From positions 1 to 39,243 of IMG/VR virus record IMGVR_UViG_3300028394_000156: a stretch of DNA of 39,243 bases, one strand, 5' to 3'. Source of the DNA: a virus. Made by a program: the position numbers and the translations under genes. A model generated the notes under the pieces. That model had not been told where the DNA came from. It searched no databases and saw only the letters and a list, made by a program, of their open reading frames with translations. Positions 1-39,243 of this stretch are shown here, one piece after another (within the stretch, counting starts at the first letter, position 1; every line of letters begins with the position of its first letter).

Positions 1-1309
1 GCGTTCCGCTAAAATAGAAGAAATGCGCACTTTGATTTCTGCTATCGAAACATTGGGTGCAAATGCCAATGACGATCAAAGGTCAAAGTTAACTACAATT
101 AGGACAGAGGTTACCAATTTGGAAAATGATATTGATAATCATTTGATGATTGAGGCCGAAACTAAAAGAATGGCTACTCCTGCAACAAAAGTTAACGAAA
201 ACAAAGTTAACGATGAGCAAACAGTTAAAAAAGGTTATTCATTTCTTAGAGCAGCTAATCTTATTGCTAATAACAAAAGCCTTGATGGTTTAGAGTTAGA
301 GATGCACCAAGAGGCTGAAAGAGAATTTAAACAAGCTGGTATCTCCGCTTCGGGTAATCTTTACATTCCTAAGATGATTGTAAAGAATGAGAAGAGAGAT
401 ATGACTGCTACAAGTGCGGTTGCTGGTGGTAATACTGTACCAACTATTTTGGGTGATTTGATTCCATTCCTTGACCCAAGATTGGCAGTTATTCAAGCTG
501 GTGCAACCTTACTTACAGGATTGACTGGTAATTTAGATTTTCCTCGTAATGATGCTGCGGCTACTGCGGTTTGGGAAACTGAAAACTCTGCCAATGATGA
601 GACAAGTCCAACTTTTGATAAAATTAGTATGTCACCTAATCGTTTGGGTGCGTTTACTAACATTTCAAAGCAGTTACTTGTTCAATCATCTATTGACGTT
701 GAGAATTTTGTAAGAAATCGTTTAAGCGAAGCAGTTAACAGAGCATTAGATTATGCTTTGATTAATGGTGATAATTCAACTCAACCATTCTTTGGTATTT
801 TAAATACTGTTGGTATTGGTTCTGTAGCGATTGGTACTGATGGTGGTCCTTTGACCTACAAGCATATTATTGACCTTGAAACTGCTTTGGCTACTGATAA
901 TGCTGATTTTGGTACTTTAGCTTACCTTACTACACCTGGTGTAAGAGGTTTCTTAAAGAATACCGAGAAAGCAAGTGGTACTGCTCAATTTGTTTGGAAT
1001 GATGGTGCACCACCAGTTGGACAACAAGGAGTTAGAACTGATTTGTTAAACGGATACCGTGCTTATGTTTCAACACAAGTACCAAGCAACTTAACTAAAG
1101 GTGGTGGAACTAATTTACATTCAGTAATTTTTGGGAACTTTGCTGAATTGTTAATTGGACAATGGGCTGGTTTAGATGTTGTGGTTGATCCATACTCATC
1201 AAGCAAAAATGCATTGGTTACCATCGTAGTTAACTCTTGGTGGGATTCTGCCGTACGTCATGCTAAATCATTTGCCGCTATTAAAGATGCGGATATTACT
1301 GGTATTTAA
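1..1309 (+). CDS. Major capsid protein, HK97 fold (5'-truncated copy)
   Basis: This is the same gene as the complete copy at 37814-39151, lacking its first ten codons because the window begins inside it; an internal ATG at position 23 is not the natural start. It forms the icosahedral shell. The N-terminal third is charged and helical, as in the scaffolding (delta) region of HK97-type capsid proteins that the head protease removes. The rest carries the capsid fold, including the stretch around VPTILGDLIP and the N-arm to E-loop region. It differs from the other copy at five residues (for example T/R in EQ[T/R]VKK and A/S near the C-terminus). Head-tail connector genes follow directly, as expected. 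Confidence 0.9.
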   Translation, partial: RSAKIEEMRTLISAIETLGANANDDQRSKLTTIRTEVTNLENDIDNHLMIEAETKRMATPATKVNENKVNDEQTVKKGYSFLRAANLIANNKSLDGLELEMHQEAEREFKQAGISASGNLYIPKMIVKNEKRDMTATSAVAGGNTVPTILGDLIPFLDPRLAVIQAGATLLTGLTGNLDFPRNDAAATAVWETENSANDETSPTFDKISMSPNRLGAFTNISKQLLVQSSIDVENFVRNRLSEAVNRALDYALINGDNSTQPFFGILNTVGIGSVAIGTDGGPLTYKHIIDLETALATDNADFGTLAYLTTPGVRGFLKNTEKASGTAQFVWNDGAPPVGQQGVRTDLLNGYRAYVSTQVPSNLTKGGGTNLHSVIFGNFAELLIGQWAGLDVVVDPYSSSKNALVTIVVNSWWDSAVRHAKSFAAIKDADITGI

Positions 1310-1401
1310 ATCCTAATAAAATGAAGAATATTTTAATTGGTTTATTGGTATTTGCAGCTATTGGAGTTACTGCATTTAAAAATGACCGAAGTAAAACACT
1401 T
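1..1401. repeat. Left copy of 1401-bp near-identical terminal segment
   Basis: Bases 1-1401 align without any gap to 37843-39243. Reading them side by side I count about 47 substitutions, nearly all at third codon positions, and five amino-acid changes in the capsid protein. Bases 1-80, 481-600 and 1276-1401 are identical. The segment covers most of the capsid gene and the start of the next gene. The simplest reading is that the contig ends overlap on a circular or permuted map and that two related phage variants contributed the two ends. Confidence 0.9.
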
Positions 1402-5712: not shown

Positions 5713-8462
5713 TGGCTCAAGGAATACTATCTATAAAAATTCGTGCTGATGCCAGTCCTTTAGAAAGGGCATTAAAGGTAGTTGGTAGGGATATGGCCGC
5801 ATTTAGCCAAAAGGCTTTAGCTATTGGTAGAGGTGTAACATTAGGATTTACAGGACCTATAATTGCTATGGGTTCAAGTTTTGTTAATGCGGCTGCTTCT
5901 ATGGATCAGTTAGAGAGAGGCATGGCTGCAATAATGGGTAGTACAAGTGAAGCAACAAAAGAATTAAGTAAATTAAAGGAAAGTGCAAAGTTACCTGGTT
6001 TAGGATTTGAAGAAGCAGTTAGAGGTAGTATTAGATTACAAGCGGTAGGTTTAAAGGCAGATGAGGCAAGAAAAGTATTAGAAACATTTGGTAAAGCACT
6101 TTCATTGACAAGTGGTGGTGCGGTTGAGTTAGAAGCCGTTCAATACCAGTTAACTCAAATGATTTCTAAGAATAGGATTCTTGCAGAAGATTTTAAGCCT
6201 ATTCAATCTGCCGTTCCTTTAATTGGAAAGGCTCTACAAGCAGCTTTTAATACAGATAATATTGAGGCGGTAAGAGCAACTGGTGTTGGGGCTAAGGAGT
6301 TTGCTATGCGACTAACTGAAGCATTAGGCACAATGCCTGAGGTTATTAATGCAACGGGTGGTATAAGAAATCAATTTGATAATCTAAGAGATTCTATAAA
6401 ATTTGCCTCTGCCGAAATGGGTAAAGCCATTTTAAAGAATATAGATTTAGAAGCGGTGATAGATAGTGTTACTCAAAGGATAGTTATGTTGTCTGATTGG
6501 TTTGGAAGTCTATCTGATGGAATGCAAAAATTTATATTAAGCGCAACTAAAAACATAGCGATATTTGGTGGTTTAGCCTGGATTATAGGACAAGTTGGCT
6601 CTGCTTTAGGCACATTTATTTATGTTATGGGTCAAGCAGTTAAAGTACTTTACACATATGATAAGGTTACTAAAACAGTAGCGTTAACTACTGGTGGATG
6701 GATTACTATAATTGCTGCGTCTGCAATTGCCGTTGGATTATTAGTTAATAATTACAATAATGCTTCCAAGCCAATGGACACTTTTAACGACCATTTGTCC
6801 GTTGGTGCTAAAAATGCAAGAAAAGAAACTGTTGAGTTTAATAGCTTAATGGGTGTATTGCAGGATGCAAACACAAGTTTATCAACCAGATCTACTGCAC
6901 TTGAAACTATTAATACAAAATACAAAGACTATTTACCTAATTTAATAGAAGAAGCTACAAGTATTGATGCAATAAGAATTGCCCAAGAAAAAGGAAATAT
7001 TGCTTTACAGAATAAGTTTAAAGTATTAGCTGCTCAAGGAGTTCTTGAAAAACAATCAAAAAAATTATTAGATTTAAGGGAGGAATTATTTATTTTAGAG
7101 CAAGAAAGAACTAAATTTGAGAAAACACCTCAAGGACCAGTAACAGGATTTGGAAGTAATGTAAGTACGCAATATGATGCTCAAGGTTCAAATATTGAAA
7201 AATTAAAAAGTAAAATTGAAACTTTACAAAATGCTTACAATAAAACTTCAACAAGTTTATCGGGTTTAACAAAGGAACAAAATGCTTATAATGAGCAACT
7301 TAAAGCTGAAAAAATTGAAAACCTTAATAATAAGATTAAAGATATAAATGTTTTTTTAGAAGAACAAACAAAAAAATATGGTAAAAATGCTGATACTGTA
7401 AAAAATTTAAAAGAGGAGATTACTAAATATCAAAGTCAATTAGATGCATTACAAGGCACTAAACAAAAAGAACTAAATAACAATGATAATTTAAATAATA
7501 GTACAGATAAGGTAAAGACAAAATATGAGTTATTAAATGAACAATTAAAGGATACTGAAGAAAAATATAAAAATGTAGTTTTAACACAAGGTGCTTTATC
7601 TACTGATGCAATACAATTAGCAGAAAAATATAATTATGTAAAGGATACTTTAAAAAAAGTAAACGAACAATGGGATAAGATTGAAGGTAGAGATTTAAAT
7701 GTCACTCCTTTGCCTCAATTTAAAGCACCAAAAGAAATAGAATTTAAAGAAATATTTACAGATGATATAGCTAATAGAATATTAAAGTCAATAGGTTATG
7801 TCGATGGTGTTTCTCAATCAATGAGAAATTTAAAAGATACATCTGAAGAAGTAGGCAGTATTGTAAAAGGTAATATAACTGAAGGTATTGTTCAACCAAT
7901 GACTGAATCTCAATATCAGATTGAGAAAACAATGGTTGATATTGAAAAACTAAATGATCAATTAACAGACTTAGTAAATAATACTTTAACAGATGTTGCC
8001 TTTGCTCTTGGCGAACAACTTGGCAATGCTTTAGCTGGAGCAGGTTTTTCCATTAATATGATTTTAATGCCTTTAGCAGATGCTTTAATACAATTTGGAA
8101 AAATGGCCATTGCAACTGGTTTTGCTGCGGAGTCAATTAAAGTTGCCTTAAAATCTTTAGGTGGTGTGGGTGCAATTGCTGCTGGTATTGCATTGGTTGC
8201 TTTAGGTACATTTGTTAAGAGTCAATTAAAAGCCCCTGCACTTGCAGAGGGTGGTTTGGCATTTGGTCCTACAATGGCCATGGTTGGTGATAATAGAAAT
8301 GCTGGAATTGACCCAGAGGTTATTGCACCTTTATCAAAGTTAAAGGCAATGTTAGGTGACACCGGTGGTGGTACTCCATATATACTTAAAACAAGTATCT
8401 CTGGAACTGATTTGCAATTAATACTTGAAAGAACAGATTCTAAAAACCTAAGAATAAGATAA
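5712..8462 (+). CDS. Tape measure protein
   Basis: At 916 aa it sets tail length and carries the injected tail-lumen segments. Residues about 60-220 resemble the conserved N-terminal tape measure domain (SMDQLERGMAAIMGSTSEA, then KLPGLGFEEAVRGSIRLQAVGL). Hydrophobic helices follow at about 275-350. Residues about 440-660 are rich in Lys/Glu/Asn/Gln with heptad-like Leu spacing, probably a long coiled coil. Another hydrophobic stretch occurs near 755-845 and a Gly/Ala-rich tail ends the protein. Gene order (chaperones before, tail-tip after) is diagnostic. The start overlaps the chaperone stop by one base. Confidence 0.9.
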   Translation: MAQGILSIKIRADASPLERALKVVGRDMAAFSQKALAIGRGVTLGFTGPIIAMGSSFVNAAASMDQLERGMAAIMGSTSEATKELSKLKESAKLPGLGFEEAVRGSIRLQAVGLKADEARKVLETFGKALSLTSGGAVELEAVQYQLTQMISKNRILAEDFKPIQSAVPLIGKALQAAFNTDNIEAVRATGVGAKEFAMRLTEALGTMPEVINATGGIRNQFDNLRDSIKFASAEMGKAILKNIDLEAVIDSVTQRIVMLSDWFGSLSDGMQKFILSATKNIAIFGGLAWIIGQVGSALGTFIYVMGQAVKVLYTYDKVTKTVALTTGGWITIIAASAIAVGLLVNNYNNASKPMDTFNDHLSVGAKNARKETVEFNSLMGVLQDANTSLSTRSTALETINTKYKDYLPNLIEEATSIDAIRIAQEKGNIALQNKFKVLAAQGVLEKQSKKLLDLREELFILEQERTKFEKTPQGPVTGFGSNVSTQYDAQGSNIEKLKSKIETLQNAYNKTSTSLSGLTKEQNAYNEQLKAEKIENLNNKIKDINVFLEEQTKKYGKNADTVKNLKEEITKYQSQLDALQGTKQKELNNNDNLNNSTDKVKTKYELLNEQLKDTEEKYKNVVLTQGALSTDAIQLAEKYNYVKDTLKKVNEQWDKIEGRDLNVTPLPQFKAPKEIEFKEIFTDDIANRILKSIGYVDGVSQSMRNLKDTSEEVGSIVKGNITEGIVQPMTESQYQIEKTMVDIEKLNDQLTDLVNNTLTDVAFALGEQLGNALAGAGFSINMILMPLADALIQFGKMAIATGFAAESIKVALKSLGGVGAIAAGIALVALGTFVKSQLKAPALAEGGLAFGPTMAMVGDNRNAGIDPEVIAPLSKLKAMLGDTGGGTPYILKTSISGTDLQLILERTDSKNLRIR

Positions 8463-23524: not shown

Positions 23525-24310
23525 TCATTTACCATCAAGTGTAAAATTAATTACTTTTTTGTAAACCGCTAACTTATAAGCTATAACTTTTGCTCGTGGC
23601 AAGTTACCTTCAGCTATCTTTCTCATGTGTGCTTTCCTGTCGTAAAGATTGTAGGAGTCTGGCGGTAGGTTCTTTGCAATCTCTTTTGCCTCTTCCCATA
23701 ATGCCTCTTTCTCTCCATCTTGCCATGTAAGGTAACCAAGTCTAACAGCCATGTCGTACCAATAAATAGGAATGTCATTAAAATCATTTGATTGAAAATT
23801 GCGTAACTTATTTTCAAAGTCACGGTCATATTCCTTACTTGACAATTCCCGTTTCTTATCCAGTATTTCCTGTTCTAATTTATCTTGTTTCTCCTTGTCA
23901 ATCTGGTAAGTAATCTTATTCCTATATAGCATATATGCACTTAATATCTTACCTAATGTGTGTAAGTTGACCTTCCCGTAAAACTTTATGTCTTCATCCA
24001 AGTCCAACTGCTGGGTAGAAAACAATTCAAAAGCAGTCCTAATTTCTTCAGGTGCAAGTAATTTGTAATTTCTTCCAATATGATCTGCCACTTCCATGTA
24101 ATATTCCTTTGCTCCATCAATACCGTACATCGGAAACAATGTAGTAATTAAATTGTAAACCTGGGTATAGGCAGCCTGGAAACCTATTTTAATTATCCTA
24201 TTCTCCCTATGGTTTACAATGCGTTCAACGTGAGTTAAATTAGAATTGGTTTTGGCTGCTATGGCCGGTAAGTTCGTACTCATCTTGGCTAAATAAATTA
24301 GGGTTAGCAA
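23525..24310 (-). CDS. Unknown replication-module protein (252-261 aa)
   Basis: A helical protein with a Lys/Glu-rich coiled coil at about residues 135-175 (DKEKQDKLEQEILDKKRELS). The second Met (MSTNLPAIAAK, 24283) is a likelier start than the first; both overlap the preceding gene. It sits two genes after the lambda-O-like initiator, where a helicase loader (P-like) often lies, but no P-loop or other motif is visible, so that role is only a guess. A terminator follows it. Confidence 0.6.
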   Translation of the reverse strand: MLTLIYLAKMSTNLPAIAAKTNSNLTHVERIVNHRENRIIKIGFQAAYTQVYNLITTLFPMYGIDGAKEYYMEVADHIGRNYKLLAPEEIRTAFELFSTQQLDLDEDIKFYGKVNLHTLGKILSAYMLYRNKITYQIDKEKQDKLEQEILDKKRELSSKEYDRDFENKLRNFQSNDFNDIPIYWYDMAVRLGYLTWQDGEKEALWEEAKEIAKNLPPDSYNLYDRKAHMRKIAEGNLPRAKVIAYKLAVYKKVINFTLDGK

Positions 24311-24510: not shown

Positions 24511-25434
24511 TTAGTTTACAATTCCATATCTACTTCTTAAAAACTCGGCAGCTTCAGCATTCAACTGTTCTTCTTTTTTCTGCTTACTAAGTATTAAATT
24601 ACTATTTTGCACCTTTGCATAAATCTGTGTGCATTGTCTATATAGTAAACCAATATTAAAGTTAGCCTTTAAATATTTATCATCAAGCATCCATGCAGCC
24701 TGTATAAATACTTTAAAGTTATCCATCTTGCTTGTCGGATCAATCTTTTCAACCCATTCCAATAACAACTTTACATTCCTTGCATCAATAGGGTTAAGTA
24801 TATAATTGCCATTTAGTGTACGTGGATACTTTGCAGCGGAAACAGATTCATGAAAGGTGCAGAACATTTCGTAAGCGACAAAAATGTCGCTGGGTTGCTT
24901 CGGCTCGGCTTTTTCTTTCTTTTCACGCAACTTTTCTTTCTTTTTAACCTTGTCAGAGTCTAAGGAATCAGAGAAACCTTGCCTTGTAAAAGGATTTTTT
25001 ATCTCATCTTTTGTGTGCGAAAATTCGTTTTCGCATATATTATAATCTGTATTATTAACTGTATTATTAACTGTATTATTATGTTCACGTTTTCGTGTAG
25101 GCTGCTTTACTGTTTTCGTGAATTCTGCTTTCACGTTTTCGTTAAAGCTGCTTTCACATTTATGTTTGTTAGTTCTCAATCCTCTATTCCTTCCATCAAA
25201 AAAAAGTTGAATTATAAAATCTCTTTTCTTTAAATCGCTAATTATATTTGCTACTCTACCCTCTGATAAATTTACAAATTTTGCTAAGTATTCATTTGAT
25301 GCAAAACATCCACGGTCTGAGTTATCAAGAGAATCAATTTCTACAATTAAAACCTTTTCTATTAAAGTTAAATTTGTATTTAACCAAATTTCCTTTTTTA
25401 TCCAAACACCTTTAAAATCTCTAATTTCGTTCAT
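24511..25434 (-). CDS. Replication initiator, lambda O-like, with winged helix-turn-helix
   Basis: The N-terminal 90 residues look like a winged helix: FKGVWIKKEIWLN, then TLIEKVLIVEIDSLDN, FASNEYLAKFVNLSEGRVAN and a basic wing. Residues about 92-180 are a low-complexity polar and charged linker (NNTVNNTVNNT) and residues about 180-307 form a helical C-terminal domain that would recruit the helicase loader. As in lambda, the linker DNA contains direct repeats and an AT-rich block (25017-25170). No helicase or DNA polymerase gene is seen, so the host replisome is probably used. Confidence 0.7.
   Translation of the reverse strand: MNEIRDFKGVWIKKEIWLNTNLTLIEKVLIVEIDSLDNSDRGCFASNEYLAKFVNLSEGRVANIISDLKKRDFIIQLFFDGRNRGLRTNKHKCESSFNENVKAEFTKTVKQPTRKREHNNTVNNTVNNTDYNICENEFSHTKDEIKNPFTRQGFSDSLDSDKVKKKEKLREKKEKAEPKQPSDIFVAYEMFCTFHESVSAAKYPRTLNGNYILNPIDARNVKLLLEWVEKIDPTSKMDNFKVFIQAAWMLDDKYLKANFNIGLLYRQCTQIYAKVQNSNLILSKQKKEEQLNAEAAEFLRSRYGIVN
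25017..25170. other. Candidate replication origin inside the initiator gene
   Basis: Four imperfect repeats start at 25079, 25102, 25125 and 25148, with an exact 23-bp period and consensus near CTGCTTTCACGTTTTCGT. The period is not a multiple of three, so the repeats are kept at DNA level and do not appear as protein repeats. Next to them lie three 12-bp AT-rich units (CTGTATTATTAA, from 25047), a possible unwinding element, and an inverted repeat GCGAAAA/TTTTCGC with loop TTCG (25017-25034). This matches the lambda ori plan (four iterons plus AT-rich DNA within the O gene). Confidence 0.65.
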
Positions 25435-25445
25435 TTTAATGTATT

Positions 25446-26153
25446 TTAAAATAAGTTAAGTTGATTAGAAAAATTTTCAATTCTTTTAACTGATAATCCA
25501 TGATAATTAACGGATATTTCAGAACCTAAATATTTCTTATTTTCTTTTAAAGATGCTATTGCAGTTGTTCCGCTTCCCATATAAGGGTCAAATATTATTT
25601 TTGAATCAGGAAAACACATAATAAATCTTTGTGCTAATTTTATTGGAAATGCTCTTTTATGTATCTTTTCAGTACCTTCGGCAGTATCCTTTAATAAATC
25701 ATGTTGATTTATATTATTTACAAAATTTGTATTAATGCCTTTTGATAACCAGTAAATCCTTTCAGTCATAGGATAAAATCTACATTTATCAAAATTTTGT
25801 GAACCATTAAACCAAATTATTTCTTGTTTAATATCCCATTTAGTTTTTAAAATCCATTCATATGGTGTTATTTGTCTTCCATGTTTAATTCTATTTTTAT
25901 GATTATACATTATACTGCCACCTTGTTTAGTGATTCTATATATTTCATCTAAAACTTCTATTTGTTGTTTTTGATAATCAATTTCAGGAATATTATCAAG
26001 GTATTGATCGTATGCTTTAAATACATTATTACCAGTATGATGTTTTAAACCTAAATTATAAGGTGGTGATGTTATTGTTAAATCAATAAAATTATCTGGA
26101 ATTTTACCCATAAAGATTAAACAATCCTCATTATAAATCTTATTTAATTCCAT
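25446..26153 (-). CDS. DNA methyltransferase, beta class (TSPPY)
   Basis: A 235-aa methylase with catalytic motif IV TSPPY (residues 28-32) before the SAM-binding motif FDPYMGSGTT (188-197), the order of beta-class enzymes. TSPPY occurs in N4-cytosine and some N6-adenine methylases, so the base cannot be fixed. No restriction gene is adjacent; it is probably an orphan methylase that protects phage DNA. It starts two bases after a tiny 26-aa frame and precedes the initiator gene. Confidence 0.85.
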   Translation of the reverse strand: MELNKIYNEDCLIFMGKIPDNFIDLTITSPPYNLGLKHHTGNNVFKAYDQYLDNIPEIDYQKQQIEVLDEIYRITKQGGSIMYNHKNRIKHGRQITPYEWILKTKWDIKQEIIWFNGSQNFDKCRFYPMTERIYWLSKGINTNFVNNINQHDLLKDTAEGTEKIHKRAFPIKLAQRFIMCFPDSKIIFDPYMGSGTTAIASLKENKKYLGSEISVNYHGLSVKRIENFSNQLNLF

Positions 26154-26154
26154 T

Positions 26155-26235
26155 TTAATCTATTTTATTTAAGTTCGCAAATTCACCATGGTATTTAATT
26201 GCTACTTTTCCTTGTGTCAACTGAATTTCTTTCAT
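26155..26235 (-). CDS. 26-aa peptide resembling the start of an HNH homing endonuclease
   Basis: The frame MKEIQLTQGKVAIKYHGEF (26 aa with its tail) resembles the N-terminal motif KEI-LTQGK-A common in free-standing HNH/AP2-type phage endonucleases, but the rest of such a protein is missing. It lies between two methyltransferase genes. It may be a remnant or a real micro-gene; the call is uncertain. Confidence 0.35.
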   Translation of the reverse strand: MKEIQLTQGKVAIKYHGEFANLNKID

Positions 26236-26238
26236 AGT

Positions 26239-26982
26239 TTAAAAATTTAAAACACACATAGTGCTTGTTATTCTGTCTTTAGCAATTTTAAAATATTTTT
26301 CATCTAATTCAATGCCTATAAATTTTCTATTATGTCTTATACATGACAAAGCAGTCGTTCCACTACCCATAAATGGGTCAATTATAATATAATCCTCAGG
26401 TATAATTCCTATTATATTATCCATAACCTTTAAAGGCATCTGGCAAGGGTGTTCTGTTTTTTCGGCACTTACATTTTTAACTTGATTAATTTCCCACCAA
26501 TCATATAATTTAGCTGATTTTCCTTCTTCAATACGTTTAGCAATCCTTTTATCAGTTGGATTCTTGTATTCTTGAGAAACCTTTGTAAAATCTGGTTTAA
26601 AACCAAAAAAAGCTATATCTCTATGTTGTTTTCCTGTATTGCTATTATAAACCCAACTTACAACCTTATCAGGAAACATACCTATATTAAAAGAATGTTT
26701 ATATAAGTTTTCTGCATAATGAATAATTACTTGTTTGTTTGTTCCAAAAATATTAGATAACCAATTATAATAATCATCTTCTTTCATTTTATCAGAATAA
26801 TTATTATAATGATAACCAATATTAAAAGGAGGATCTGAAACAAATATTACCTTATTATAATCAATATCTATATTAGGTAATACATAATTATTGTTTCCAT
26901 GATATATTTCTATTTCATTTTTTCCATCTATTCCATAAGATAAAGAAATCTTAGAATAAATTAAATCATTAAATGTTTCCAT
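26239..26982 (-). CDS. DNA methyltransferase, beta class (DPPF)
   Basis: A 247-aa methylase with motif IV DPPFNIGYHY (DPPF 50-53) and, near the C-terminus, the SAM motif IDPFMGSGTTALS (202-210) followed by FIGIELDEKYF. DPPF/DPPY favours N6-adenine methylation, though not strictly. The target domain lies between the two motifs (about 60-190). A terminator lies just upstream, so it likely needs its own promoter. No cognate restriction enzyme is nearby. Confidence 0.85.
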   Translation of the reverse strand: METFNDLIYSKISLSYGIDGKNEIEIYHGNNNYVLPNIDIDYNKVIFVSDPPFNIGYHYNNYSDKMKEDDYYNWLSNIFGTNKQVIIHYAENLYKHSFNIGMFPDKVVSWVYNSNTGKQHRDIAFFGFKPDFTKVSQEYKNPTDKRIAKRIEEGKSAKLYDWWEINQVKNVSAEKTEHPCQMPLKVMDNIIGIIPEDYIIIDPFMGSGTTALSCIRHNRKFIGIELDEKYFKIAKDRITSTMCVLNF

Positions 26983-26991
26983 ATTTGTATT

Positions 26992-27024
26992 AAAAAAATG
27001 CCCAATAGGTGGACTCTATCGGGC
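26992..27024 (-). terminator. Intrinsic terminator (minus strand)
   Basis: Minus-strand stem GCCCGATAG/CTATTGGGC (nine pairs, one G-U) with a 7-nt loop, then A followed by seven T. It lies between the 110-aa gene and the DPPF methylase gene. The rest of the 120-nt gap (27025-27102) has no gene. Confidence 0.75.
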
Positions 27025-27102
27025 AAGGGTTAGAACAATATTGTGTTGTTCCAATTCCTTTAAGCAGCGTCCACTCCGTTTAAAGGATAATCAAAGATAA
27101 TA

Positions 27103-27435
27103 CTATTTTATACTTTTCCCTTTATTTTTACTTTTTATTCCATAATATCTTTTGTCGCATTCTTCTCTTTCCTTTCTTCTTGAAACAATCTCATTTGCAA
27201 TCATATCATTTGACCATGAAAGATATTTAACTTCTATAATGCAGTATGTTTCTAAATCAAACATTCCATAGTTTATAACACAAATACGACCATCGTTATC
27301 ATAAAAAAATAAAATGTCATCCATTGCAATGTCTGGATACATACGGGGGTCATGGCGATGAAACAATTGGCAGATTTCAATAATCCTTTCTTTGATTTCA
27401 TCATGTTGCTTAAAATACTCTATGTGATAATTCAT
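27103..27435 (-). CDS. Unknown 110-aa protein between two methylase genes
   Basis: It has a helical start (YFKQHDEIKERIIEICQLFH), a beta-rich centre (DDILFFYDNDGRICVINYGM), and a basic tail. ATGA overlap with the DPPY methylase gene means they are coupled. It could be a methylase partner or an anti-defence protein; no motif is recognised. Confidence 0.6.
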   Translation of the reverse strand: MNYHIEYFKQHDEIKERIIEICQLFHRHDPRMYPDIAMDDILFFYDNDGRICVINYGMFDLETYCIIEVKYLSWSNDMIANEIVSRRKEREECDKRYYGIKSKNKGKSIK

Positions 27436-28091
27436 AAATTTAGTTTTAACTGAGCAATATAAGCCTTGTATCTTTTTTCCTGTGCCAGAAAGTATTCTTT
27501 ATCCAATTCAAAAGCCGTAAAATCAAAACCCATTTGATAGGCTGCTATGCGACTACTTCCAGACCCTAAATGCGTATCAAGTATTTTATCGCCTTGCTTT
27601 GCGTAGTTATGCAAAAGCCATTTGTAAAGGTGTATTGGTTTTTGATTTGGGTGTATTTTTATGCTTTTGTCGTTACCTTTTAAAAATCCATTCCATTCTA
27701 TAGTACATTTTTTTACCAATTTATTAAATGATTGGAAAGCTATTTCACAATCGCTCATAGGAGATCCTGTTAATTTTTTATCCCAAATTATAGCACCTGA
27801 ATGATATAAGAATTGAGGATAATAATTACTTCCCCAAATTATTTGATTTTTAGATAACCTAAATAATTCTATAAAATATTCTTTTTCAGGACATTTATTG
27901 TAGTTAGCATAATGTTTCATTTTTTTACCTCTTTCAGTATATATTCCTTTATTTCCAAAAGTACCATCACTTGCTCCAACTGCATAAGGTGGGTCAACAA
28001 TAGCCAAATCAAAGTATTTGTCTGGATACCTTGCCATGCCTTCCATGCAATCCTCATTCGTTACCTCGCTTAAATTCTTATTCATAATCAT
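27432..28091 (-). CDS. DNA methyltransferase, beta class, probably N6-adenine (DPPY)
   Basis: A 219-aa methylase with motif IV IVDPPYAVGA (DPPY 33-36) and the SAM motif ILDTHLGSGSSRIAA (172-180). KIHPNQKPIHLYKWLL lies just before the SAM motif, as in Dam-like beta-class phage methylases. MNKN at residue 3 is an alternative start. Preceded by a terminator and an A-rich leader; its stop overlaps the next gene. Confidence 0.85.
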   Translation of the reverse strand: MIMNKNLSEVTNEDCMEGMARYPDKYFDLAIVDPPYAVGASDGTFGNKGIYTERGKKMKHYANYNKCPEKEYFIELFRLSKNQIIWGSNYYPQFLYHSGAIIWDKKLTGSPMSDCEIAFQSFNKLVKKCTIEWNGFLKGNDKSIKIHPNQKPIHLYKWLLHNYAKQGDKILDTHLGSGSSRIAAYQMGFDFTAFELDKEYFLAQEKRYKAYIAQLKLNL

Positions 28092-28556: not shown

Positions 28557-28713
28557 TAGGTTTGTTTTTATAATAGTTATTCAATAAAGATTCAATCACT
28601 AATATTATTCCAGGCAATATAAAGTAACTGAAATGAATGTCAGTATAATTTGTTGCTTTGGCTAAAAATAATAACCAAAACACAATTTCTGCAACACTTG
28701 TTCTTTCCAACAT
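28549..28713 (-). CDS. Small membrane-like protein (54 aa), first gene of the minus module
   Basis: MLERTSVAEIVFWLLFLAKA, then TNYTDIHFSYF, a hydrophobic ILPGIILVIESLL, and a basic tail; two membrane segments are likely. It overlaps the ssb start by eight bases. A TATTTTTG box lies 36 nt upstream on the same strand. Function is unknown. Confidence 0.55.
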   Translation of the reverse strand: MLERTSVAEIVFWLLFLAKATNYTDIHFSYFILPGIILVIESLLNNYYKNKPND

Positions 28714-28749
28714 AGGGGCTAAAGTTAAATGGTAAAATAATTATTAATC

Positions 28750-28757
28750 AAAAATAC
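28750..28757 (-). promoter_or_regulatory. Candidate -7 box for the minus-strand module
   Basis: The minus strand reads TATTTTTG (TAnnTTTG) and lies upstream of the 54-aa gene and ssb. It faces away from the plus-strand box at 28799-28806, forming a divergent pair in an AT-rich 110-bp gap. No -33 TTTG is seen at the ideal distance. Confidence 0.4.
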
Positions 28758-28798
28758 AAAATTTATTTTAATAAAATACTTTTTTATAAAAAATAATG

Positions 28799-28806
28799 TA
28801 TATTTG
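28799..28806 (+). promoter_or_regulatory. Candidate -7 box for the 48-aa regulator gene
   Basis: TATATTTG fits TAnnTTTG and is 16 nt before the ATG at 28823. The sequence TATTTGCAT just here, followed by AAAATTATTA, also occurs in the promoters at 30147 and 35652, which suggests a shared control element. Confidence 0.5.
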
Positions 28807-28822
28807 CATAAAATTATTAATT

Positions 28823-28969
28823 ATGTCTATTAAGAAAAAGAACGTAATGATGTCAGAGGAAACTCATTGTAAACTTATGGAGATTAGAATGAGAGTATAT
28901 AAGACAAAGGGGCTACTCTTAACTATGGAGAAAAGTATTTTGTATCTTATAGAAAATCAAAAGGATTAA
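28823..28969 (+). CDS. Ribbon-helix-helix-like small regulator (48 aa)
   Basis: The frame reads MSIKKKNVMMSEETHCKLME, then IRMRVYKTKGLLLTMEKSI and LYLIENQKD. The order short basic strand, helix (SEETHCKLMEIRMRVY), turn with Gly, and second helix (LTMEKSILYLIEN) fits an Arc/CopG-type DNA-binding fold. It has its own promoter-like box and terminator and stands in the divergent control region, so it may repress early or replication genes. Length is at the lower end for the family. The fold call is by pattern only. Confidence 0.55.
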   Translation: MSIKKKNVMMSEETHCKLMEIRMRVYKTKGLLLTMEKSILYLIENQKD

Positions 28970-28998
28970 AAGATAATTGTTTTTTGACTGTATTCGAA

Positions 28999-29025
28999 GC
29001 CGTGATGAATTGTCACGGCTTTTTT
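28999..29025 (+). terminator. Intrinsic terminator after the 48-aa gene
   Basis: GCCGTGA (28999-29005) pairs perfectly with TCACGGC (29013-29019), 7-nt loop, then six T. It makes the regulator a one-gene transcript. Confidence 0.9.
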
Positions 29026-29112
29026 ATTAAGGGGCAGTATGTCAATCACTATAATTAAACTGATCACTAATTACTAAAATCATTAACATGAATACTGGGG
29101 CATATATACAAT

Positions 29113-29155
29113 GTAATAATGCTTACCATAACAATTTATGTAAAATCATTATTAC
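29113..29155. repeat. Inverted repeat GTAATAATG/CATTATTAC
   Basis: Nine perfect pairs separated by 25 bases; inner bases may extend the pairing partly. It may be an operator or RNA hairpin near the terminator of the 48-aa gene. Confidence 0.5.
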
Positions 29156-29673
29156 GGTAGGCTATTGTTTAAATGGGGTAGGGGCTATTGCTGATGGAAA
29201 ACACCAGGAATTTGGCAAAATGCAAAATCATTTTTGAAAATGGTTAAATTAGACACAAACTGTCAAACGTATTCCTGTCAAAACATATTTTAAACTCAAG
29301 TAATTTATCTATATGTATAGGCATATATGTATTGGTAAAACCTATAGCTATTTTAATAAAAATGTAATGAGTATTTGTTTTGATTTAGCCTATAAACTAA
29401 TTATATATTTTATTGTAAAGTACGGTTAAATCGTACTCTTTTAATTTGTCAGTAAATGACAAGTATTCTACCGACAAACTTTGTAAAAGCTTTATAATAA
29501 ATTTTATAAATATTTCCAGAAATTATTTCAAAATTGATTTGATAAATAAATTGAATTAAAAGCAAAAATTAATAAAAAAATTAAAATTAAAATTTTTTAA
29601 AATTTTTTAAAAATTTTTTTTGAAAAATAAAAAAAAAACAGAAAGTGACGAAACCTCAGCCAAAAAAAAATGT

Positions 29674-29685
29674 CCGCGGCCGCGG
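29674..29685. repeat. GC-rich 12-bp perfect palindrome
   Basis: CCGCGGCCGCGG is fully self-complementary and lies in a very AT-rich neighbourhood, followed within 20 bases by another GTCGCGGTCGG stretch. Such an isolated GC island suggests a protein-binding or structural site. Confidence 0.6.
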
Positions 29686-29759
29686 TTGCCAAGTCGCGGT
29701 CGGAAATAAAAATTTTCCCAAAATTTTTGGACATCAACGGGAATGACGCAAAGTTTTTT

Positions 29760-29789
29760 AGCGCTTAGCGCTTCAAGCGCAGAAAGCGC
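29760..29789. repeat. Nested palindrome of GCGCTT/AAGCGC units
   Basis: AGCGC occurs four times, at 29760, 29767, 29776 and 29785. Units GCGCTT (29761-29766 and 29768-29773) pair with AAGCGC (29775-29780 and 29784-29789), giving a double-layer hairpin of about 12 pairs with a single-base loop. Confidence 0.6.
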
Positions 29790-29795
29790 AATAAG

Positions 29796-30044
29796 TCCTA
29801 CCAAAAAGGTAGGGTTTCCTTTTTTGGAAACTTTTGTAAGTTTTTTTTAAACCCTACTAAATTAGTAGGGTTTATTTGTCCTACTAAAAAGGTAGGGTTA
29901 ATTTTGGGCCGTACCAGGTTTCGGATTTTAAAAAAAAGTCCTATCAAAAAGGTAGGATTAAAAAAGTCCTATAAAAATAATAGGATTAATTTTTTGCTGC
30001 CAGAATTTTCGAATCTAAAAAAAAGTTCTACTAAAAACGTAGGG
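29796..30044. repeat. Array of six related hairpins (CCTAC...GTAGG)
   Basis: Stem arms and positions: CCTACC/GGTAGG (29797-29813), AAACCCTACT/AGTAGGGTTT (29849-29873), CCTAC/GTAGG (29880-29896), CCTATC/GGTAGG (29940-29956), TCCTAT/ATAGGA (29967-29985), CTAC/GTAG (30028-30042). Most loops are A-rich (AAAAA), most units are preceded by an A-run then GTCC, and followed by GGGTT or GGATTA. Base changes in one arm are often matched in the other, which indicates that the paired structure is kept. Confidence 0.7.
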
Positions 30045-30148
30045 TTAATTTTGTCCCTCGAAACAAATTTTTAAAAAATTGATTTTGTTAAATTTTTGAT
30101 CCTATATTATAAAAGCAAAAAATAATAATTAAAAAAAAATAAAAAATA

Positions 30149-30179
30149 TTTGCATTTATAAAATTATTATGTAAATTTG
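30149..30179 (+). promoter_or_regulatory. Bacteroidota-type promoter for the early small genes
   Basis: TTTG (30149-30152) and TAAATTTG (30172-30179) are separated by 19 nt, matching the -33/-7 consensus of this phylum. Transcription would begin near 30185, about 35 nt before the first ATG at 30220, and could run to the terminators at 32526-32638. Confidence 0.65.
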
Positions 30180-30219
30180 CATATCAATTTTTTTTAAAAC
30201 AGTCAAAAAAACAAACGAC

Positions 30220-32757: not shown

Positions 32758-32897
32758 TTAGATCATTACTATAGTACTGTAGTACTGTAGTTAGCTATCC
32801 TTAGATCATTACTATAGTACTGTAGTACTGTAGTTAGCTATCCTTAGATCATTACTATAGTACTGTAGTACTGTAGTTAGCTATCCTTAGATCATTA
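32758..32897. repeat. Three exact tandem 43-bp repeats plus an 11-bp partial copy
   Basis: Identical units at 32758-32800, 32801-32843 and 32844-32886; TTAGATCATTA (32887-32897) starts a fourth. Each unit contains CTATAGTAC-TGTA-GTACTGTAG, a nine-pair hairpin with one G-U, and two TAGTACTG copies. The array is not coding. It could be a binding array for a replication, packaging or transcription protein. Confidence 0.85.
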
Positions 32898-37813: not shown

Positions 37814-39151
37814 ATGTTGAAATCAGATGAATTAAAACAGTCGCGTTCCGCTAAAATAGAAGAAATGCGCACTTTGATTTCTGCTATCGAAACATTGGGT
37901 GCAAATGCCAATGACGATCAAAGATCAAAATTAAACACGATTAGGACAGAGGTCACCAATTTAGAGAATGATATTGATAATCATTTGATGATTGAGGCCG
38001 AAACTAAAAGAATGGCTACTCCTGCAACAAAAGTTAACGAAAACAAAGTTAACGATGAGCAAAGAGTTAAAAAAGGTTATTCATTCCTTAGAGCGGCTAA
38101 TCTTATTGCTAATAACAAAAACCTTGATGGTTTAGAATTAGAGATGCACCAAGAGGCTGAAAGAGAATTTAAACAAGCTGGTATCTCCGCTTCCGGTAAC
38201 CTTTACATTCCTAAGATGATTGTAAAGAATGAGAAGAGAGATATGACCGCTACGAGTGCGGTTGCTGGTGGTAATACTGTACCAACTATTTTGGGTGATT
38301 TAATTCCATTCCTTGACCCAAGATTGGCAGTTATTCAAGCTGGTGCAACCTTACTTACAGGATTGACTGGTAATTTAGATTTTCCTCGTAATGATGCTGC
38401 GGCTACTGCGGTTTGGGAAACTGAAAACTCTGCCAATGATGAAACAAGTCCAACTTTTGATAAAATTAGTATGTCACCTAATCGTTTAGGTGCGTTTACT
38501 AATATTTCAAAGCAATTACTTGTTCAATCATCTATTGACGTTGAGAATTTTGTAAGAAATCGTTTGAGCGAAGCAGTTAACAGAGCATTAGATTATGCTT
38601 TGATTAATGGCGATAATTCAACGCAACCATTCTTCGGTATTTTAAATACTGCTGGTATTGGTTCGGTTGCAATCGGTACTGATGGTGGTCCTTTGACATA
38701 CAAGCATATTATTGACCTTGAAACTGCTTTGGCTACTGATAATGCTGACTTTGGTACATTAGCTTACCTTACTACACCTGGTGTAAGAGGTTTCTTAAAG
38801 AATACTGAAAAAGCAAGTGGTACTGCTCAATTTGTTTGGAATGATGGTGCGCCACCAGTTGGACAACAAGGAGTTAGAACTGACTTGTTAAACGGATACC
38901 GTGCTTATGTTTCGACGCAAGTACCAAGCAACTTAACTAAAGGTGGTGGAACTAATTTACATTCAGTAATTTTTGGAAACTTTGCTGAATTGTTAATTGG
39001 ACAATGGGCTGGTTTAGATGTTGTAGTTGATCCATACTCATCAAGCAAAAATGCATTAGTTACCATTGTAGTTAACTCATGGTGGGATTCTGCCGTTCGT
39101 CATGCTAAATCATTTTCCGCTATTAAAGATGCGGATATTACTGGTATTTAA
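37814..39151 (+). CDS. Major capsid protein, HK97 fold (complete copy)
   Basis: A 445-aa precursor, starting MLKSDELKQSRSAKIEEMRT. Residues 1-110 are charged coiled-coil sequence like the HK97 delta domain removed by the protease. The shell domain follows, with NTVPTILGDLIPFLDPRLAV, a VWETENSANDETSPTFDKIS segment, the helix NFVRNRLSEAVNRALDYALI and the C-terminal region DVVVDPYSSSKNALVTIVV. One base separates it from the protease gene. The five residues differing from the left copy are scattered. Confidence 0.95.
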   Translation: MLKSDELKQSRSAKIEEMRTLISAIETLGANANDDQRSKLNTIRTEVTNLENDIDNHLMIEAETKRMATPATKVNENKVNDEQRVKKGYSFLRAANLIANNKNLDGLELEMHQEAEREFKQAGISASGNLYIPKMIVKNEKRDMTATSAVAGGNTVPTILGDLIPFLDPRLAVIQAGATLLTGLTGNLDFPRNDAAATAVWETENSANDETSPTFDKISMSPNRLGAFTNISKQLLVQSSIDVENFVRNRLSEAVNRALDYALINGDNSTQPFFGILNTAGIGSVAIGTDGGPLTYKHIIDLETALATDNADFGTLAYLTTPGVRGFLKNTEKASGTAQFVWNDGAPPVGQQGVRTDLLNGYRAYVSTQVPSNLTKGGGTNLHSVIFGNFAELLIGQWAGLDVVVDPYSSSKNALVTIVVNSWWDSAVRHAKSFSAIKDADITGI

Positions 39152-39243
39152 ATCCTAATAAAATGAAGAATATTTTAATTGGTTTATTGGTATTTGCAGC
39201 TATTGGAGTTACTGCATTTAAAAATGACCGAAGTAAAACACTT
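37843..39243. repeat. Right copy of the 1401-bp terminal segment
   Basis: Same segment as 1-1401, shifted by 37842 bases, with about 47 substitutions and no indels. The window ends exactly where the match ends. Because the left copy lacks the natural capsid start while this one has it, the contig probably wrapped once round a circular map. Confidence 0.9.
39163..39243 (+). CDS. Start of the signal-peptide protein next to the capsid gene (3'-truncated copy)
   Basis: The first 27 codons (MKNILIGLLVFAAIGVTAFK and onward) are identical to 1321-1401. The window ends within the gene. Full description is given for 1321-1761. Confidence 0.85.
   Translation, partial: MKNILIGLLVFAAIGVTAFKNDRSKTL

Follow-up and report, generated by a model that had tools for sequence, protein, structure and literature searches.

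A putative replication origin built into the gene of an HTH_36-type phage replication initiator

Replication origins that reside within the gene of their own initiator are already known from lambda, SPP1 and the RepA_N plasmids. In lambda and the Stx phages (lambda, P27 and 933W), the origin is located inside gene O, and the lambda iterons are imperfect inverted repeats (PMC7466680). The RepA_N initiators, such as those of pSK41 and pTZ2162, consist of a winged-helix N-terminal domain, a linker encoded by the origin and a recruiting C-terminal domain, and the iterons of these plasmids are inverted repeats that converge on poly-A (PMC5703833, PMC7145576). In the case of pSK41 Rep, the N-terminal domain binds four boxes in its own gene whereas the linker is dispensable; plasmid pPR9 differs from pSK41 over a stretch of ~500 bp that comprises the N-terminal domain and the origin, and the corresponding mini-replicon replicates (PMC5703833).

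Here, we analyzed a stretch of viral DNA of 39,243 nucleotides (IMG/VR record IMGVR_UViG_3300028394_000156, hereafter the window), which encodes, on the minus strand (24511-25434), a protein of 307 amino acids containing an HTH_36 domain (PF13730, E=5e-8). Profile search additionally matched this protein to PHROG 2880/270/678 (replication initiation, O-like) so that, with both the domain and the profile present, it fits the group of HTH_36 phage replication initiators (PHROG 2880/270 group). HTH_36 is the sole domain above the Pfam cut-off; neither RepA_N (PF06970) nor Phage_rep_O (PF04492), which lambda O does match, is detectable in the window protein by this search, and the C-terminal part yields no Pfam match. 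Direct homology to lambda O was not detected either (hhalign probability 0.5%), the common ground of the two proteins being limited to the broad PHROG O-like families. In the AlphaFold2 model, a winged helix (aa 14-88, minus strand 25171-25395, pLDDT about 90-97, in agreement with Pfam), which includes a recognition helix (aa 58-70, minus strand 25225-25263) and a wing (aa 74-88), is followed by a disordered linker (aa 100-158, minus strand 24961-25137) with pLDDT <50 for the most part (about 106-158) and by a helical C-terminal domain (aa 158-303, minus strand 24526-24963), which is presumed to be the recruiter of a helicase or primase. The top solved folds included 4pql, 4pt7 and 5kbj (E about 0.03), alongside MarR-like winged helices. 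These three entries are initiator and Rep-DNA structures, of which we take 4pql and 5kbj to come from the same work as 4PT7. The latter has been cited as the RepA_N protein of a staphylococcal plasmid (PMC7145576), which places RepA_N N-terminal domains among the nearest solved folds of the window initiator.

The low-pLDDT linker overlaps, in the coding DNA, an array of repeats that, in gene order, consists of one worn and three good iterons, an AT-rich 12-bp repeat and an inverted repeat, all located past the winged helix. The iterons (25084-25168) are 16-bp dyads, TTCACGAAAACGTGAA on the gene strand, with an exact period of 23 bp; Tandem Repeats Finder (TRF) reports period 23 and 3.4 copies at 25084-25161. 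Three of them are good copies of TTCACGTTTTCGTGAA, namely iteron 2 (minus strand 25130-25145, TTCACGTTTTCGTTAA on the plus strand), iteron 3 (minus strand 25107-25122, TTACTGTTTTCGTGAA on the plus strand) and iteron 4 (minus strand 25084-25099, TTCACGTTTTCGTGTA on the plus strand), with 1, 3 and 1 mismatches to the consensus dyad, respectively. Iteron 1 (minus strand 25153-25168, TTCACATTTATGTTTG on the plus strand) is in the 23-bp register but has more than 4 mismatches to the core and hence falls outside the list of core matches. The preliminary description of this locus reported four elements of ~18 bp with an exact 23-bp period; the period and the frames starting at 25079, 25102, 25125 and 25148 are indeed present, and the copy at 25153-25168 is the weak one. 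That description did not mention that the iterons each form a dyad centered on an A/T tract, resembling the iterons of lambda and of RepA_N plasmids. The two other elements it listed were recovered as well: the AT-rich 12-mers beside the iterons (minus strand 25038-25081; TRF period 12, 3.7 copies, AATAATACAGTT in gene sense), which form a putative unwinding element, and the GCGAAAA/TTTTCGC inverted repeat, which has 8-bp arms and a 4-nt loop (TGCGAAAA-TTCG-TTTTCGCA at 25016-25035; in gene sense, TGCGAAAA-CGAA-TTTTCGCA).

This layout agrees with the parallel to lambda drawn in the preliminary description, namely iterons and an AT-rich block within gene O (PMC7466680; lambda sequence). As in the window gene, dyad iterons with a central A tract in the lambdoid O genes are followed by an AT-rich tract, between the portions encoding the DNA-binding and C-terminal parts of the protein (PMC7466680). 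The lambda sequence also contains an inverted repeat after the AT-rich tract, in the same order as in the window (ATTCGTCAGA-GAAT-TCTGGCGAAT, one mismatch); our automatic inverted-repeat score misses this repeat, which carries a mismatch. The iteron starts are 20-24 bp apart in lambda compared to exactly 23 bp in the window. SPP1 oriL, which is embedded in gene 38, is similar to the window locus in that direct repeats and an AT-rich unwinding element lie within the initiator gene (published description; PMC6316719), and the window protein appears to share the three-part plan of the RepA_N initiators. A further link is provided by the chimeric rep gene of pPR9/pUSA03, the phage-like N-terminus of which belongs to pfam13730, the same Pfam domain as in the window initiator (published description; PMC5703833), although this rep differs from the window gene in having a RepA_N-type C-terminal domain and in residing on a plasmid. 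We would regard pPR9 as close to direct support for HTH_36 modules that bear their own origin.

The periodicity is neither a chance occurrence nor a product of coding. The best frame-breaking self-match in the initiator gene is 37/46 at lag 23, and not one of 20,000 synonymous-codon shuffles, in which codons were swapped among equal amino acids inside the gene so that the protein and the codon usage were kept, reached this value (best shuffle, 33). In a scan of the whole window at lags 13-60, a score of at least 34/46 was seen at only one other place, at 32.8 kb, where a 43-bp unit is perfectly repeated in tandem. Because the 23-bp period breaks the reading frame and the 12-bp period, which encodes NNTV, does not, the 23-bp period alone argues by itself against a protein repeat. 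Comparison of 11 relatives sharing the window iteron type showed that, where the amino acid is the same, the codon is also the same in 96% of the pairs at codons 91-118 and in 100% at codons 119-131, versus 53-64% elsewhere in the gene. This jump in synonymous identity maps to the iterons and the AT block, which places selection on the DNA itself.

Homologs were gathered by protein similarity rather than by repeats, from 7 and then 80 IMG/VR loci and from phage records; a scan of genome contigs found no relative. A significant frame-breaking period, defined as one that no more than 2 of 200 synonymous shuffles equaled or surpassed, is present in 38 of the 59 non-redundant initiators, which are related and hence do not constitute independent trials. 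Among the ten lags allowed, the period was 22 in 17 of these genes and 23 in the other 21, and the start of the repeats in all 38 falls in the interval from 18 nt ahead of the winged-helix end to 54 nt beyond it. The 38 include initiators of Lysinibacillus phage vB_LspM-01 (5 copies, 22 bp), Pseudomonas phages Cruim01, Skulduggery and HU1, and Oceanospirillum phage GJ44. Among the genes tested separately, Lactobacillus phiPYB5 passes (0/200), and Staphylococcus phage 77 does so once the test window is shortened (0/200 at 32 nt, compared to 9/200 at 46 nt). The remaining 21 of the 59 fail the strict test, which is a point against the origin reading of the window locus; unevenly spaced iterons are visible by eye in some of them and absent from Leptospira LE1. 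Of the separately tested genes, those of Lactobacillus c5 and Erysipelothrix SE-1 contain comparable elements on visual inspection but failed the periodicity test, as did that of Acetoanaerobium ANDSL2_ph1. Homologs lacking the 23-bp periodicity, the case named in advance as evidence to the contrary, are thus not the general situation under the strict test. In most of the homologs the elements follow one another in the order seen in the window, and the layout appears, from the sequences compared, to be common to relatives in phages of very different bacteria. A separate observation concerns L015 (Bacteroides phage C3_41T2LP, 1995-2276), where the HTH_36 protein stops at residue 94, the point at which the linker would begin; it might represent an independent DNA-binding domain or else a disrupted initiator.

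Folding the iteron consensuses on their period revealed significant dyad symmetry in 32 of 40, typically around an A tract. The arms differ by group, being CACG-AAAA-CGTG in the window type, TGCT-AAAA-AGCA-like in L017, L025 and L026, and TTCACAAAAATATGAA in L027 and L028, and the copies inside one gene largely change together despite being in different reading frames. The protein changes in L017, L025 and L026 include residues 59 and 63 of the recognition helix and residues 73-79 of the wing. In a set of 40 genes, iteron distance increases as the HTH/wing half diverges, once the rest is controlled for (partial r 0.16-0.37), but hardly follows the divergence of stretches of the first ~43 residues (partial r -0.03 to 0.11). 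A link specific to the recognition helix was rejected because the whole HTH/wing half correlates. Without amounting to proof, this co-variation is consistent with a protein that reads its own repeats. As to the AT block, 35 of 40 genes have a higher AT content in the 60 nt after the iterons than in the gene as a whole, and Asn-Thr in the linker is written AATACA 101 times out of 130, compared to 29.6 expected from the remainder of the same genes. AATACA is used in the linker even by GC-rich Pseudomonas phages for which the rest of the gene gives zero expectation.

The inverted repeat is retained in the close group of relatives, in which 13 of 14 genes have the dyad center 54-55 nt past the first AATAATA. 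Among the ten distinct sequences of this group, 93% of the pair cells are Watson-Crick, versus 12-45% when the repeat is slid, and all seven pairs show two-sided change; the pairs were counted ungapped by a script, MAFFT having misaligned the hairpins. Each sequence was centered on its own best repeat, which makes the constant distance the more independent of these two observations. In more distant members, the AT block is followed by other repeats, with 12-13-bp arms in L040, L066 and L068, TGTCGGG-CAA-CCCGACA in phage 77 and GTCGGGC-AA-GCCCGAC in phiPYB5, and some have no inverted repeat at this position. The hairpin is a likely third element of the cassette in the HTH_36 initiators.

Taken together, the frame-breaking period, the frozen codons, the recurrence in 38 of 59 relatives, the dyad iterons, the AATACA bias, the compensatory changes in the hairpin, the co-variation of iteron arms with the HTH half, the protein fold and the published precedents lead us to conclude, with a probability of about 0.87, that 25016-25170 is the theta-type replication origin of the phage, built into the gene of its own initiator. 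The preliminary description had proposed an origin read by the protein that it encodes, arguing that selection must act on DNA given that the 23-bp period breaks the frame. The shuffles and the frozen synonymous codons bear out the latter argument, and the former proposal is supported by the constraint at the DNA level, the shared order of elements, the dyad iterons, the combination of winged helix and disordered linker, and the resemblance to RepA_N (PMC5703833). By analogy with lambda, SPP1 and pSK41, we infer that the dyad iterons (arm-AAAA-arm, at 23-bp intervals) are the binding sites of the N-terminal winged helix, that the resulting complex strains the adjoining AT-rich repeat and opens the AT block, and that the C-terminal domain brings the helicase and primase of the phage or the host. 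A third element would be the inverted repeat that follows the AT block; as a guess, it perhaps forms a hairpin on the opened strand at which helicase or primase enters.

The present comparison adds a broad demonstration that phage HTH_36 initiators bear the same cassette as the previously described systems. A more general proposal, which we advance tentatively and consider somewhat more likely to fail than to hold, is that HTH_36-type origins generally contain the inverted repeat as their third element, at a fixed spacing from the unwinding block, where compensatory change preserves it as an entry hairpin for helicase or primase, and that the winged helix, iterons, AATACA block and hairpin form a single exchangeable cassette of phages and plasmids across phyla, with an iteron code that co-evolves with the HTH and wing. 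The origins of uncultured phages are seldom known; should the rule hold, the linker of a single gene would suffice to locate the origin in a phage with an HTH_36 initiator, and the many natural domain-iteron pairs would be a ready data set on how initiators recognize and switch origins.

Among the alternatives, one might suppose that the repeats bind the initiator solely for autoregulation, as an operator or roadblock in the gene, and that replication begins elsewhere, for example in the noncoding region 28557-30219, which lies between divergent gene blocks near a local minimum of the cumulative GC skew and contains six A-tract palindromes. Autoregulation, however, does not call for a frozen-codon AT block or a hairpin more than 100 codons into the gene, the layout equals that of proven origins (PMC7466680, PMC6316719, PMC5703833), and the relative L106 has preserved the palindromes at 29.8-30.0 kb poorly, the same pattern matching only two of the six; we consider this explanation highly improbable. 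We deem it very improbable that 25016-25170 is one of two origins, as in SPP1, where oriR is located about 13 kb from oriL (PMC6316719): repeat arrays are present in the noncoding regions 28.6-30.2 and 32.5-32.9 kb, but the iteron core forms no second cluster anywhere in the window, so an SPP1-like second cluster was rejected. A third alternative places the repeats at the level of the protein, as a repetitive low-complexity linker maintained for its amino acids. This is hardly credible, given that the synonymous shuffles and codon conservation reject it and that frame-breaking 22/23-bp periods recur in distant phages, even if the 12-bp repeat is in frame and disordered linkers tolerate repeats.

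Two further observations stand against the origin assignment. Cumulative GC skew, which had been suggested as a check, has no turning point at 25.1 kb; it turns at about 28.5-29.3 and 17.6 kb, where gene direction turns, and because the skew tracks the gene strand, it is uninformative and was rejected as origin evidence. In addition, no helicase loader, which would be expected beside the initiator, was recognized there, whereas a helicase or helicase-loader gene is annotated beside the initiators of Skulduggery, HU1, phage 77, phiPYB5, c5 and ANDSL2_ph1. The gene downstream of the initiator (minus strand 23525-24310) encodes an all-helical protein of 261 amino acids that is 41-97% identical in relatives; with no named family (Pfam, PHROG) and no fold match, it was rejected as a candidate loader.

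Three consecutive DNA methyltransferase genes (minus strand 25446-28091; 25446-26153, 26239-26982 and 27432-28091) separate the initiator from the SSB gene. The noncoding region at 28.6-30.2 kb may contain promoters and operators, or else a second origin; the six palindromes there, which have the form GTCCTACYAAAAAGGTAGGG (29795-30044, intergenic, between divergent gene blocks), may function as operators or terminators or as another site for the initiator. Neither the Rfam nor the tRNA scan of the window gave any hit. The 43-bp perfect tandem repeat (32758-32897, 3.3 copies) is noncoding and precedes the HNH and terminase genes. At the same place, L106 contains a different array of 36 bp (6153-6397, 6.8 copies) between conserved flanks; the array was replaced rather than having diverged, and a cos/pac or partition function is possible. 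Finally, the ends of the window (1-1401 and 37843-39243) overlap by 1401 bp with 96.6% identity, both within the major capsid gene, so that the genome is circular, about 37.8 kb in size, with the ends seemingly derived from two variants.
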